DNA of 64,000 nucleotides, from positions 496,001-560,000 of the forward strand of contig NZ_SOQX01000002.1 of the NCBI RefSeq assembly GCF_004366735.1, written 5' to 3'. Position numbers and translations under genes: made by a program. The DNA comes from Thiohalophilus thiocyanatoxydans. Its GTDB lineage: Bacteria; Pseudomonadota; Gammaproteobacteria; UBA6429; Thiohalophilaceae. Every line of letters starts with the position of its first letter. The stretch's first letter is position 1. Shown piece after piece: positions 58,290-61,995 of the stretch. Below the pieces are notes generated by a model, which ran no database searches, was not told the origin of the DNA, and saw only the letters and a list, made by a program, of their open reading frames with translations.

Positions 58290-59708
58290 ATGATCAAAAA
58301 AATCCTCATCGCCAACCGTGGCGAGATCGCGGTGCGGATCATCCGGGCCTGTACGGAACTGGGCATCAAATCGGTGGCCGTCTATTCGGAGGCCGACCGC
58401 TATGCCCTGCATGTCAAAAAGGCCGACGAGGCCTACAGCCTGGGCCCGGACACCGTGGCCGGCTATCTCAACGCCCATCGGCTGGTCAACCTGGCCGTAG
58501 CCACCGGCTGTGACGCCCTGCACCCCGGCTACGGCTTTCTCTCGGAAAATCCGGAACTGGCGGAGATCTGCGCCCGGCGTAATATCCAGTTTATCGGCCC
58601 CGAGGCACGGGTGATCCGCCAGATGGGCGACAAGACCCAGGCCCGCGACCTGCTGCGCCAGGCCGGCGTGCCGGTCACCCCCGGCAGCGAGGGTAATGTC
58701 ACCGATCTGGAGGACGCCGTGGCGGTGGCCGATGCGATCGGCTACCCGGTGATGCTCAAGGCCACCTCCGGCGGTGGCGGCCGGGGTATTCGCCGCTGCG
58801 ACAACGAGCCGGAACTGCGCCGCAGCTACGGTCGGGTCATCTCCGAGGCGGAGAAGGCCTTCGGCAGTGCCGAGGTCTTCATCGAAAAATACATCGGCAA
58901 CCCGCGGCATATCGAGGTGCAGATCCTCGCCGACCAGCACGGCAACGTGATCCACCTGCTGGAGCGGGACTGCTCCATCCAGCGTCGCCACCAGAAGCTG
59001 CTGGAGATCGCCCCCTCCCCCCAGCTCAACGACGAGCAGCGCCAGCTGATCGGCGATCTGGCCGTGCGCGCCGCCGAGGCGGTCGGCTATACCAATGCCG
59101 GCACGGTGGAATTTCTGATGGACAGCGAGGAGAATTTCTACTTCATGGAGATGAACACCCGCCTGCAGGTGGAGCACCCGGTGACCGAGGCGATCACCGG
59201 GGTGGACATCGTCCAGGAGCAGATCCGCATCGCCTCGGGCCTGACCCTGAGCTTCAGCCAGCAGGATATCCGGCGTCACGGCTACGCCATCGAGTTTCGG
59301 ATCAACGCCGAGGACCCGAAAAACGACTTTCTGCCCAGCTTCGGGCGTATTACCCGTTACTTCGCCTCCGGCGGCCCCGGGGTGCGCACCGACGGCGCCA
59401 TCTACACCGGTTACGAGATCCCGCCCTATTACGATTCCATGTGTGCCAAACTGATTGTCTGGGCACCGACCTGGGATGGGGTTATCGACCGCTCATTACG
59501 CGCGTTGCAGGATATCGGCGTTTACGGCGTCAAAACCACCATTCCCTATCACATGGAAATCCTGCGCAACGCCGAATTCCAATCCGGACACTTTAATACC
59601 GGCTTCGTCGAAGCCCATCCGGAGCTGATCGACTACTCCGAACGGCGCGACGACCGCGCCATCGCCGCCACCATCGCCGTGGCAATCGCGGCGAACATGG
59701 GGCTCTAA
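58290..59708 (+). CDS. pycA: Biotin carboxylase subunit (pyruvate carboxylase subunit A)
   Basis: This 472-aa protein starts MIKKILIANRGEIAVRIIRA and has the ATP-grasp segment KATSGGGGRGIRRC, FIEKYIGNPRHIEVQILADQ, the ERDCSIQRRHQKLLEIAPSP motif and EMNTRLQVEHPVTEAITGVD. It carboxylates biotin with ATP and bicarbonate. Because the downstream gene encodes a carboxyltransferase with a biotin domain, this is more likely pyruvate carboxylase subunit A than AccC. A mobile GIY-YIG element separates the two genes. Confidence 0.9.
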   Translation: MIKKILIANRGEIAVRIIRACTELGIKSVAVYSEADRYALHVKKADEAYSLGPDTVAGYLNAHRLVNLAVATGCDALHPGYGFLSENPELAEICARRNIQFIGPEARVIRQMGDKTQARDLLRQAGVPVTPGSEGNVTDLEDAVAVADAIGYPVMLKATSGGGGRGIRRCDNEPELRRSYGRVISEAEKAFGSAEVFIEKYIGNPRHIEVQILADQHGNVIHLLERDCSIQRRHQKLLEIAPSPQLNDEQRQLIGDLAVRAAEAVGYTNAGTVEFLMDSEENFYFMEMNTRLQVEHPVTEAITGVDIVQEQIRIASGLTLSFSQQDIRRHGYAIEFRINAEDPKNDFLPSFGRITRYFASGGPGVRTDGAIYTGYEIPPYYDSMCAKLIVWAPTWDGVIDRSLRALQDIGVYGVKTTIPYHMEILRNAEFQSGHFNTGFVEAHPELIDYSERRDDRAIAATIAVAIAANMGL

Positions 59709-59756
59709 AAAGATGCAAGGCTTCAGCGTCAGAAAAAGATCAACTTTCAATTTATC

Positions 59757-59783
59757 GTCATTCCGGCGCAGGCCGGAATCCAG
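59757..59783. repeat. Left palindrome of the GIY-YIG element
   Basis: gtcattccggcgcaggccgg followed by aatccag; stem attccggc / gccggaat. It is the inverse of the palindrome at 60121-60147. Confidence 0.85.
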
Positions 59784-59801
59784 TTTCGGAAAGAGGCCGT
59801 T

Positions 59802-60092
59802 ATGGAGAAACAGCCCTGTGTCTATCTACTGGCCAGTAAACGCTATGGGACATTGTATACTGGAGTAACTTCAAACTTGTTAAAGCGCGTCTGGGAACAT
59901 AAGACTCATAGCGTTGATGGATTCACCAAAAAATATGATGTAACAGTTCTGGTTTGGTATGAAGTTCATGAAAGTATGGAATCGGCAATCAAACGTGAAA
60001 AATCACTCAAGAACTGGAATCGAGCCTGGAAAATACGGCTGATTGAAGAAACAAACTCACAGTGGCGTGATCTATATAAACAGTTACTCTAA
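59802..60092 (+). CDS. GIY-YIG nuclease superfamily protein
   Basis: This 96-aa protein has the short GIY-YIG core: CVYLLASKRYGTLYTGVTSN with LYTG as the YIG variant, LLKRVWEHKTHS (catalytic Arg), YEVHESMESAIKREKSLKNW with the metal-binding Glu, and NRAWKIRLIEE. Members of this short (UPF0213-like) type often occur next to 'gtcattccgc...' palindromes. Here the gene is flanked by such palindromes in inverted orientation at 59757-59783 and 60121-60147, and is inserted between pycA and pycB. It is probably the nuclease of a small mobile element. Confidence 0.88.
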   Translation: MEKQPCVYLLASKRYGTLYTGVTSNLLKRVWEHKTHSVDGFTKKYDVTVLVWYEVHESMESAIKREKSLKNWNRAWKIRLIEETNSQWRDLYKQLL

Positions 60093-60120
60093 TATTCTGA
60101 TTGTGAAATCATAGAGAGAG

Positions 60121-60147
60121 TGGATTCCGCCCTTCGGCGGAATGACA
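60121..60147. repeat. Right palindrome of the GIY-YIG element
   Basis: tggattccgcccttcggcgg followed by aatgaca; stem attccgcc / ggcggaat. It is the reverse complement type of the left palindrome. Confidence 0.85.
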
Positions 60148-60171
60148 CACATCGAGAATTAGGAATTTTCC

Positions 60172-61995
60172 ATGCCCAAGGTCAAGATTACCGACACGAT
60201 TCTGCGCGACGCCCATCAGTCGTTGATCGCCACGCGTATGCGCACCGAGGACATGCTGCCGATCTGTGAGAAGCTGGATCGGGTCGGTTACTGGTCACTG
60301 GAGGTCTGGGGCGGCGCGACCTTCGATGCCTGTGTGCGGTTTTTAAAAGAAGATCCCTGGGAGCGGCTGCGCCAGTTGCGCAAGGCGTTGCCCAATACGC
60401 AGCTGCAGATGCTGTTGCGCGGTCAGAATCTGCTCGGCTATCGCCACTATGCCGACGATGTGGTGCGCGAGTTCGTGGCCCGGGCCGCGGACAACGGCAT
60501 GGATATTTTCCGCATCTTCGATGCCATGAACGATCTGCGTAACATCCGGGTCTCGATCGAGACGGTCAAGCAAAGCGGCAAGCACGCCCAGGGCGCCATC
60601 TGTTACACCACCAGCCCCATACATACTCTGGATCGGTTTGTACAACTGGGCAAAGACCTTCAGGAGATGGGCTGCGACAGTGTCGCCATCAAGGACATGG
60701 CCGGGCTGTTAACCCCGAATGTGACTGCGCAACTGGTCTCGGCGCTGGTCAGCGAGCTGGAGATCCCGGTGTTTACCCATTCGCACGCCACCGCCGGGCT
60801 GGCCGACATGTGTCACTACAAGGCGGTGGAAAACGGCGCCGCCGGTTTTGATACCGCCATCTCCTCCTTCTCCGGCGGCACCAGCCACCCGCCCACCGAA
60901 AGCATGGTCGCCGCGTTCAGGGATACCGAATACGATTCAGGCCTGGACCTGCCCCTGTTGCAGGAGGTCGGGTTTTACTTTCGCGAGATACGCAAGAAGT
61001 ACCATCAGTTCGAAAGCGAATTCACCGGCCTCGATACCCGTGTACAGGTCAATCAGGTGCCCGGCGGCATGATCTCCAATCTGTCGAATCAGTTAAAGGA
61101 ACAGGGTGCCCTGACCCGCATGAACGAGGTGCTCGAGGAGATCCCCCGGGTGCGCAAGGAGTTGGGTTATCCGCCCCTGGTCACGCCCACCTCGCAGATC
61201 GTCGGCAGCCAGGCGGTGATGAATGTGCTTGGCGGCAAGCGCTATGCGACCATCACCAACGAGGTGAAACACTATCTGCAGGGCCGCTACGGCCAGGCCC
61301 TGGGTGAGATCAGCCCGCAGGTGCAGCACATGGCCATCGGTAATGAAGAGGTAATCAAATGCCGCCCCGCCGATCTGATCCCGCCGGAAATGGAGAAACT
61401 GCGCAAGGAGATCGGCCCCCTGGCCAAATCGGAAGAGGATGTGCTGACCTACGCCATGTTTCCTGAACTGGGCCGCGATTTTCTGCAACAGCGCGAGGAC
61501 GGCAAGCTGATCCCCGAACCGCTGGAACCCCCCAACGTCAACAACGCCAACGGACACAAAGCCGCCACCGAGTTCAATGTCACTCTGCACGGCGAGAGTT
61601 ATCACATCAAGGTCACCGGGCGCGGTTATCCCAAGGAACACCTGCGTCCCTACTACGTGACCGTGGATGGCGTGCCCGAGGAGATCCTGCTCGAATCGCT
61701 GGATGAGATTGCTCTCGGTGGTGAAGGCGGCGATACCGGCCATGCCCGCTCCGCGGCCGGCAAACGCCCGCGCGCCACGACTCCGGGGCACGTTTCGACC
61801 TCCATGCCCGGCACCATCGTCGATGTGCTGGTCAGCGTCGGTGACGAGGTCGAAGCCGGCGATCCAGTGCTGATCACCGAAGCGATGAAAATGGAAACCG
61901 AGATCCAGTCGCCGATTAAAGGTATCATCAAGGCCATCCACGTCACCAAGGGCGAAAGCGTCAACCCGGATGAGGCGCTGGTGGAAATCGAATAA
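60172..61995 (+). CDS. pycB: Carboxyltransferase with biotin domain (pyruvate carboxylase subunit B / OadA family)
   Basis: This 607-aa protein starts KITDTILRDAHQSLIATRMR, with QMLLRGQNLLGYRHYADDVV and FRIFDAMNDLRN, the HMGL-like carboxyltransferase barrel, and ends in a biotinyl domain with the biotin Lys in VLITEAMKMETEIQSPIKGI. No oadB or oadG genes follow, so a two-subunit pyruvate carboxylase with pycA fits better than the sodium-pumping oxaloacetate decarboxylase. It makes oxaloacetate from pyruvate. The start has a moderate RBS. Confidence 0.9.
   Translation: MPKVKITDTILRDAHQSLIATRMRTEDMLPICEKLDRVGYWSLEVWGGATFDACVRFLKEDPWERLRQLRKALPNTQLQMLLRGQNLLGYRHYADDVVREFVARAADNGMDIFRIFDAMNDLRNIRVSIETVKQSGKHAQGAICYTTSPIHTLDRFVQLGKDLQEMGCDSVAIKDMAGLLTPNVTAQLVSALVSELEIPVFTHSHATAGLADMCHYKAVENGAAGFDTAISSFSGGTSHPPTESMVAAFRDTEYDSGLDLPLLQEVGFYFREIRKKYHQFESEFTGLDTRVQVNQVPGGMISNLSNQLKEQGALTRMNEVLEEIPRVRKELGYPPLVTPTSQIVGSQAVMNVLGGKRYATITNEVKHYLQGRYGQALGEISPQVQHMAIGNEEVIKCRPADLIPPEMEKLRKEIGPLAKSEEDVLTYAMFPELGRDFLQQREDGKLIPEPLEPPNVNNANGHKAATEFNVTLHGESYHIKVTGRGYPKEHLRPYYVTVDGVPEEILLESLDEIALGGEGGDTGHARSAAGKRPRATTPGHVSTSMPGTIVDVLVSVGDEVEAGDPVLITEAMKMETEIQSPIKGIIKAIHVTKGESVNPDEALVEIE

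Follow-up and report, generated by a model that had tools for sequence, protein, structure and literature searches.

A gene for a single-domain GIY-YIG nuclease, enclosed by two inward-facing hairpins of the CGTC class of repetitive extragenic palindromes (REPs), lies between the pyruvate carboxylase genes pycA and pycB of Thiohalophilus thiocyanatoxydans, in the 64,000-nt stretch of contig NZ_SOQX01000002.1 that we analysed (hereafter the window). From its sequence, this unit of ~390 bp is probably a selfish element bounded by REPs, whose spread would be driven by its own nuclease. The same anatomy recurs at many loci, the unit is absent at orthologous sites, near-identical copies are dispersed, and palindrome types co-segregate with nuclease subfamilies.

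The inverted repeat that bounds the unit (59757–59787 and 60116–60146) is 84% complementary. Either arm alone forms a hairpin with a perfect 8-bp stem and a 4-nt loop, at -8.9 kcal/mol as single-stranded DNA, a stability matched in none of 200 shuffles of each arm. The left and right stems differ by compensating changes (ATTCCGGC/GCCGGAAT versus ATTCCGCC/GGCGGAAT), suggesting that each hairpin, rather than pairing between left and right, is conserved. Base 60146 is the end of the unit; base 60147 completes the TGTC tag on the right, and base 59756 makes the left tag CGTC. The pattern GTCATTCCN{4,14}GGAATCC has two matches in the window, exactly the two arms, and none in 100 shuffles. Across the source genome (2.9 Mb, 15 contigs), the left 26-mer GTCATTCCGGCGCAGGCCGGAATCCA has identical copies at two further places, and a looser palindrome pattern matches nine places with no control matches.

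CGTC REPs are defined by an unpaired CGTC, TGTC or CCTC tag, a stem of 8–9 bp nearly always starting with AT, a loop of 4–5 nt and a CCA tail; they include dRS3 of Neisseria as CGTC-1 (Di Nocera, De Gregorio and Rocco, 2013; PMC3733652). Both arms share tag, 8-bp stem, 4-nt loop, CCA tail and genome-wide dispersal with these repeats. According to the main text of that survey, CGTC REPs apparently have no dedicated transposase and their mobiliser is left open; the term GIY does not occur in it. The initial annotation of the window had described a GIY-YIG gene flanked by mutually inverse palindromes of a widely dispersed type. The gene and its place between pycA and pycB are confirmed by a 96-aa open reading frame with a Pfam match at E 2.9e-16 and by NCBIfam matches of both neighbours; the flanks do form an inverted repeat, but the right hairpin is no exact inverse of the left. 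Dispersal was also borne out, with palindromes in 97 of 276 genomes of the class (1452 in total versus 4 control matches, controls counted by eye).

The unit recurs far beyond this locus. Homologues were drawn from the class genomes (63 of 276 with a match at E 1e-8), a plasmid collection (33 records, 8 regions opened) and genome contigs (best 80 of 563). Three of the plasmid records, NZ_CP119140.1, NZ_CP119142.1 and NZ_AP026896.1, are of chromosome size (2.2, 2.2 and 4.9 Mb). From 118 loci, four with short flanks (L045, L048, L090, L124) were dropped, leaving 114, or 112 without two duplicates; as these are the best homologues of each search, the sample favours close relatives. A detector of inward CGTC-type hairpins within 160 bp of the gene found them on both sides at 65 of the 114 loci, only upstream at 20, only downstream at 15 and on neither side at 14; in the non-redundant set, at least one side had them at 99 loci and both sides at 64. 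Among 94 control windows placed 900 bp away, none had them on both sides, two had them upstream and one downstream. Together with the shuffles of the window, these controls rule out a chance pairing of hairpins. The unit of L057 is set between gene matches to N-6 methylase and type I specificity domains, and that of L047 adjoins a CpsB-type gene. The unit of L061 lies within a RhuM-family gene, of which profile positions 1–51 are upstream, 183–249 are downstream and the middle is missing or unrecognised. A homologue in N. gonorrhoeae, 60% identical, is located among dRS3-type palindromes.

A motif-free score of inverted repeats between the flanks exceeded the control maximum at 88 of the 114 loci. 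The median over these 114 loci was 21.75, versus 12.0 when their flanks were compared in direct orientation and 8.0 in 95 controls. Random pairings of flanks from different loci also exceeded this maximum in 235 of 600 cases, because the motif is common to the loci. A second set, 58 further stretches from the class search that are mostly more diverged or partial, was reduced to 56 by removing one short flank and one double reading; here the motif-free score was above the control maximum in 29 of 57 (double reading counted). Class-search matches without a locus, mostly fragments and second copies, fall outside both sets. The REP detector misses other stems, for example GTCATTGCGAG..GCAATC. Palindromes of that kind, not GTCATTCC, flank L270–L273 and other more diverged GIY-YIG genes (GTCATTGC type), among them L272, the GIY-YIG copy of the only other genome of the genus that was searched.

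The ends of an element match each other. Over the first 9 stem bases, identity within elements averages 0.91 versus 0.76 after permutation (maximum of 5000 permutations: 0.80; 65 pairs). Of 17 elements with GTCATTGC palindromes (duplicates removed), 12 have another element of that type as their nearest protein neighbour, versus a permuted mean of 2.4 and a maximum of 11 in 10,000. Shared descent feeds both the stem match and the co-segregation of types, and thus both support recognition of the palindromes by the nuclease without proving it. Matched stems and co-segregation, together with what is reported of the Neisseria nuclease Ssn, lend indirect support to the view that the nuclease may act on the palindromes, as the initial annotation had proposed.

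Copies within single genomes outline the unit. Genome G120 holds three copies of the gene that are 94–96% identical over 356–406 bp. Their alignment runs through the gene and stops at the outer end of the right REP, after which the sequences differ; on the left side, the REP is common to two copies, whose alignment has an internal gap, and the third copy already departs within the unit. Genome G229 holds a pair 92% identical over 392 bp. In Azospirillum lipoferum 4B, a unit with a REP pair on each side lies between sufB and sufC. The same two genes are found without it in A. ramasamyi, A. oryzae and strain B510 (flanks 95.3–97.0% identical; gaps of 91, 87 and 129 bp) and in A. thermophilum (90.4% identical; gap of 55 bp), and none of these four gaps contains a CGTC palindrome. 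The unit thus resembles insertion sequences and transposons in its presence and absence at orthologous sites and in dispersed copies with shared boundaries, clear on the right, not in all copies on the left. The proposal that it has the anatomy of a mobile element is upheld by gene and palindromes occurring together at many loci and by near-identical copies within one genome.

The pycA-pycB gap behaves similarly among relatives. PycB has a match in 36 of the 58 genomes that were searched (source genome counted), and of the 30 loci fetched, one is that of the window. Among the other 29, the contig of L019 stops ~115 bp upstream of pycB; the remaining 28 gaps are fully readable, and the nuclease gene is absent from all 28. 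An ancient arrangement shared by all relatives, which the initial annotation had named as refuting its reading, is thereby ruled out at pyc. The gap measures 8–49 bp in 21 of these relatives, with no CGTC palindrome in any of the 21, and 98–271 bp in seven. A different, ACGCAGAGG-like repeat occurs without a nuclease gene in five of these seven longer gaps, those of L012, L015, L016, L020 and L035 (both inverted arms), and in the visible part of L019. The gap of L011, the same-genus genome (PycB 97% identical), measures 126 bp and contains an AT-rich inverted repeat with GAATTTTGAATT-like arms. Since other repeats fill this gap in relatives, it appears to receive inserts repeatedly.

Some sites contain a trace in place of the unit. 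In Sphingobium, two of three unit-less plasmids read hold, where relatives have the unit, one double-headed palindrome (in one of them with mismatches), which looks as if two REPs had fused at their loops (GTC-stem-loop-stem-GAC). Two Sinorhizobium genomes compared with each other both carry a double-headed palindrome at places where the partner has units; one of these palindromes is degenerate and one is next to a further degenerate REP. Such palindromes were detected in 29 of the 276 class genomes, with no control matches, and could be scars or targets. All three observations would suit a homing cycle in which the nuclease cuts gene-less double-headed palindromes, repair from a unit with homologous outer arms copies the unit in, and slippage between the repeated arms in turn deletes it and leaves a double-headed palindrome. 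The direction of these changes is, however, unpolarised, and simple slippage between 8-bp repeats gives the same product without any nuclease. Moreover, an unrelated short insert occupies the site in the third Sphingobium plasmid, CGTC palindromes are missing from the four Azospirillum gaps and the 21 short pyc gaps, and no double-headed GTCATTCC palindrome occurs in the source genome. We regard such a cycle as improbable. Sinorhizobium K101 carries the gene between two direct copies of an inverted-REP element of ~115 bp, known as RIME; parts of this region are matched by 114 plasmid records, and two short gene-less copies were read.

Across the 276 class genomes, nuclease and palindromes go together (lists and counts were transferred by hand, and the statistics ignore kinship). 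The palindrome is present in 47 of 63 genomes with the nuclease versus 50 of 213 without it (odds ratio 9.6, Fisher p 2.7e-13). Y1 transposases offer another candidate mobiliser: if RAYT or IS200-type enzymes moved the palindromes, the GIY-YIG gene would be a passenger. Y1_Tnp matches occur in 179 of the 276 genomes, including the source genome, which has five, and they too go with the palindrome, at an odds ratio of 3.2 (p 6.7e-5); this holds when GIY-YIG-positive (p 0.04) and GIY-YIG-negative genomes (p 0.02) are taken separately. Their association is nevertheless weaker than that of the nuclease, which persists in Y1-negative genomes: at least three palindromes are found in 5 of 16 of these with the nuclease versus 3 of 81 without it (p 0.003). 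In Y1-positive genomes the corresponding counts are 30 of 47 versus 19 of 132. Furthermore, in the species that it checked, the 2013 survey (PMC3733652) found CGTC repeats flanking no gene for a tyrosine transposase. Together these data make a passenger role very unlikely.

The gene itself appears to be recent foreign DNA by its composition. Its G+C content is 39.9% versus 63.4% and 60.1% in the flanking genes, and its third-position G+C is 0.40 versus 0.84 and 0.78. The encoded protein matches Pfam GIY-YIG (PF01541) over residues 5–78, most of its length, and the Pfam search returned this domain alone, without a second one. Y8, Y19, R29 and E66 are invariant in an alignment of 13 sequences and lie at the positions of the catalytic residues of the GIY-YIG fold. 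NCBIfam has no family for this protein or for its gonococcal homologue. A single-sequence search yielded no solved structure of a close relative; the nearest by profile, UPF0213 proteins (PDB 1zg2, E 1.2e-4; 1ywl, E 0.0054), are distant. Searches of PHROGs and PADLOC gave no match to the nuclease, excluding a phage protein family or known defence gene, and Rfam gave none across 59000–61000, excluding a known structured RNA. The second GIY-YIG gene of the source genome (L002) is distant (34% identical) and has no REP.

A different role for the nuclease is suggested by Ssn, site-specific GIY-YIG enzymes of Neisseria and others reportedly described in Nat Commun in 2025, which are said to cut single-stranded DNA at a repeat with hundreds of copies in Neisseria and to have a role in transformation. 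The window nuclease could correspondingly be a domesticated host enzyme that cuts incoming single-stranded DNA at CGTC palindromes to control transformation and genome exchange; the palindromes on either side of its gene would serve both as targets and as recombination handles, and the gene would move by homologous recombination between dispersed palindromes. Such a role does not exclude a selfish one. The gonococcal homologue among dRS3-type palindromes fits it, as does selection on the gene, for which dN/dS (the ratio of nonsynonymous to synonymous rates) was estimated in 11 homologous gene pairs: five pairs from different genomes (L088/L089, L107/L109, L098/L162, L116/L119, L041/L042) are under purifying selection, with dN/dS of 0.05–0.13. 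Values tend to be higher in same-genome or allelic copies, which differ by few changes (L063/L211 0.38, L084/L085 0.61, L208/L209 1.16), though L062/L208 (0.13) and L062/L209 (0.31) are lower; the comparison of the window gene with L040 is saturated. Nuclease presence is patchy (63 of 276 class genomes at E 1e-8, 11 of 58 relatives), and some class genomes hold several copies each, some of them with internal stops. Patchiness, multiple copies, stops, dN/dS and the AT-rich composition of the window gene make the unit look selfish rather than domesticated, and we consider a regulatory host role unlikely. A protein tree of 83 rows, with 13 of 79 inner branches well supported, does not resolve transfer; the label Pseudomonadota changes 9 times on it, versus 9.5 on average when shuffled. 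The tree is compatible with transfer but is no proof of it.

Several observations weigh against a selfish REP-bounded unit. Inward REPs are absent at 14 of 114 loci, eight of which have no REP at all; the second set has them on both sides in only 8 of 56 cases and any REP in 16; and the REPs beside the gonococcal homologue face outwards. Not all of the three G120 copies have a sharp left boundary. Around 59757 and 60146 no clear target-site duplication is visible by eye. The genomes searched include no near-identical empty pyc site and no close strain with an intact empty gap, and the sole same-genus genome carries a different insert. In sister species, searches with the joined flank pairs from six further elements yielded no empty site that could be used; one long match ended near a contig end, and the others were mostly repeats. 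Finally, 11 of 30 palindrome-rich genomes (at least 10 copies) have no GIY-YIG match at E 1e-8. One of these is G308, with counts of 103 for palindromes and 21 for double-headed palindromes; in it the repeats seem to persist without the enzyme.

If the unit is selfish, its nuclease would recognise palindromes of its own type, probably folded into hairpins in single-stranded DNA (as is said of Ssn), and would then cut them. Repair or re-joining of the cut palindromes might spread the unit, and gene-less palindromes in trans, to new places. In this lineage the unit would have entered the pycA-pycB gap, bringing AT-rich, compositionally foreign DNA; both neighbouring genes (Table 1) are unbroken.

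Table 1. Features of the nuclease unit and its neighbours in the window.
Feature	Position	Strand	Description
Left CGTC-REP, GTCATTCCGGCGCAGGCCGGAATCCA at 59757–59782	59756–59782 including tag	+	Tag CGTC, stem ATTCCGGC/GCCGGAAT, loop GCAG, tail CCA
GIY-YIG nuclease gene, 96 aa	59802–60092	+	Open reading frame list and Pfam
Right REP, inward-facing, GTCATTCCGCCGAAGGGCGGAATCCA at 60121–60146	60121–60147 including tag	-	Tag TGTC, stem ATTCCGCC/GGCGGAAT, loop GAAG, tail CCA
Upstream neighbour, biotin carboxylase subunit (pycA of the initial annotation)	58290–59708	+	NF005525, 883 bits
Downstream neighbour, pyruvate carboxylase subunit B (pycB)	60172–61995	+	NF006761, 906 bits

A second class of nuclease genes shows a comparable setting. 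GxxExxY (PF13366) genes in relatives of the source genome (L277–L306, including its own two loci L287 and L305) have inverted repeats of their own, ACGCAGAGG or CACGGAGG-like, on both sides. Their flank score has a median of 20.5 (28 of 30 loci fetched) versus 8.5 in 26 controls; 25 of the 28 loci lie above all controls but one, and only 6 above that outlier (26.5).

REPtrons consist of a RAYT, a Y1 HUH transposase, flanked by GTAG REPs (PMC3733652). They likewise have REP hairpins on both sides of a nuclease-type gene, and scattered REPs that lack a gene, but they have an HUH fold and a GTAG tag where the window unit has a GIY-YIG fold and a CGTC tag, and the unit therefore falls outside the RAYT REPtrons. 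GIY-YIG nucleases might, tentatively, be dedicated mobilisers of CGTC REPs, a hairpin-reading system of transposition or homing convergent with RAYT/REPIN. Gene-less inverted REP pairs would then be non-autonomous elements, and the GxxExxY genes (PD-(D/E)XK class), with ACGCAGAGG-type inverted repeats in the same genomes and the same intergenic gap, a parallel class.

Free-standing GIY-YIG homing endonucleases of the I-TevI type share the catalytic domain and the selfish setting; the window nuclease differs in having no further Pfam domain in its 96 residues and in its palindromic boundaries. The closest parallel is Ssn, reportedly also a small GIY-YIG protein tied to a many-copy palindromic repeat; the 60% identical gonococcal homologue found here is not tied to the published Ssn locus, and our emphasis is on a bounded, dispersing unit with inward repeats and empty sites. 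A link between GIY-YIG genes and such repeats was not found in an incomplete literature search, nor in the searched passages of PMC1564403 and PMC12306157.

If the accounts of Ssn hold, this enzyme family is already known to recognise the palindrome; what the present analysis adds, with less certainty, is the bounded, dispersing unit. With REPs on at least one side at 99 of the 112 closest loci, and following their sequence type, the nuclease is a direct candidate for what CGTC repeats depend on. These repeats, including dRS3 of Neisseria, are scattered in many genomes, and the nuclease unit is a plausible answer to the open question of their mobiliser. At the pyc locus, it may illustrate how a selfish nuclease enters an operon gap without breaking a gene.
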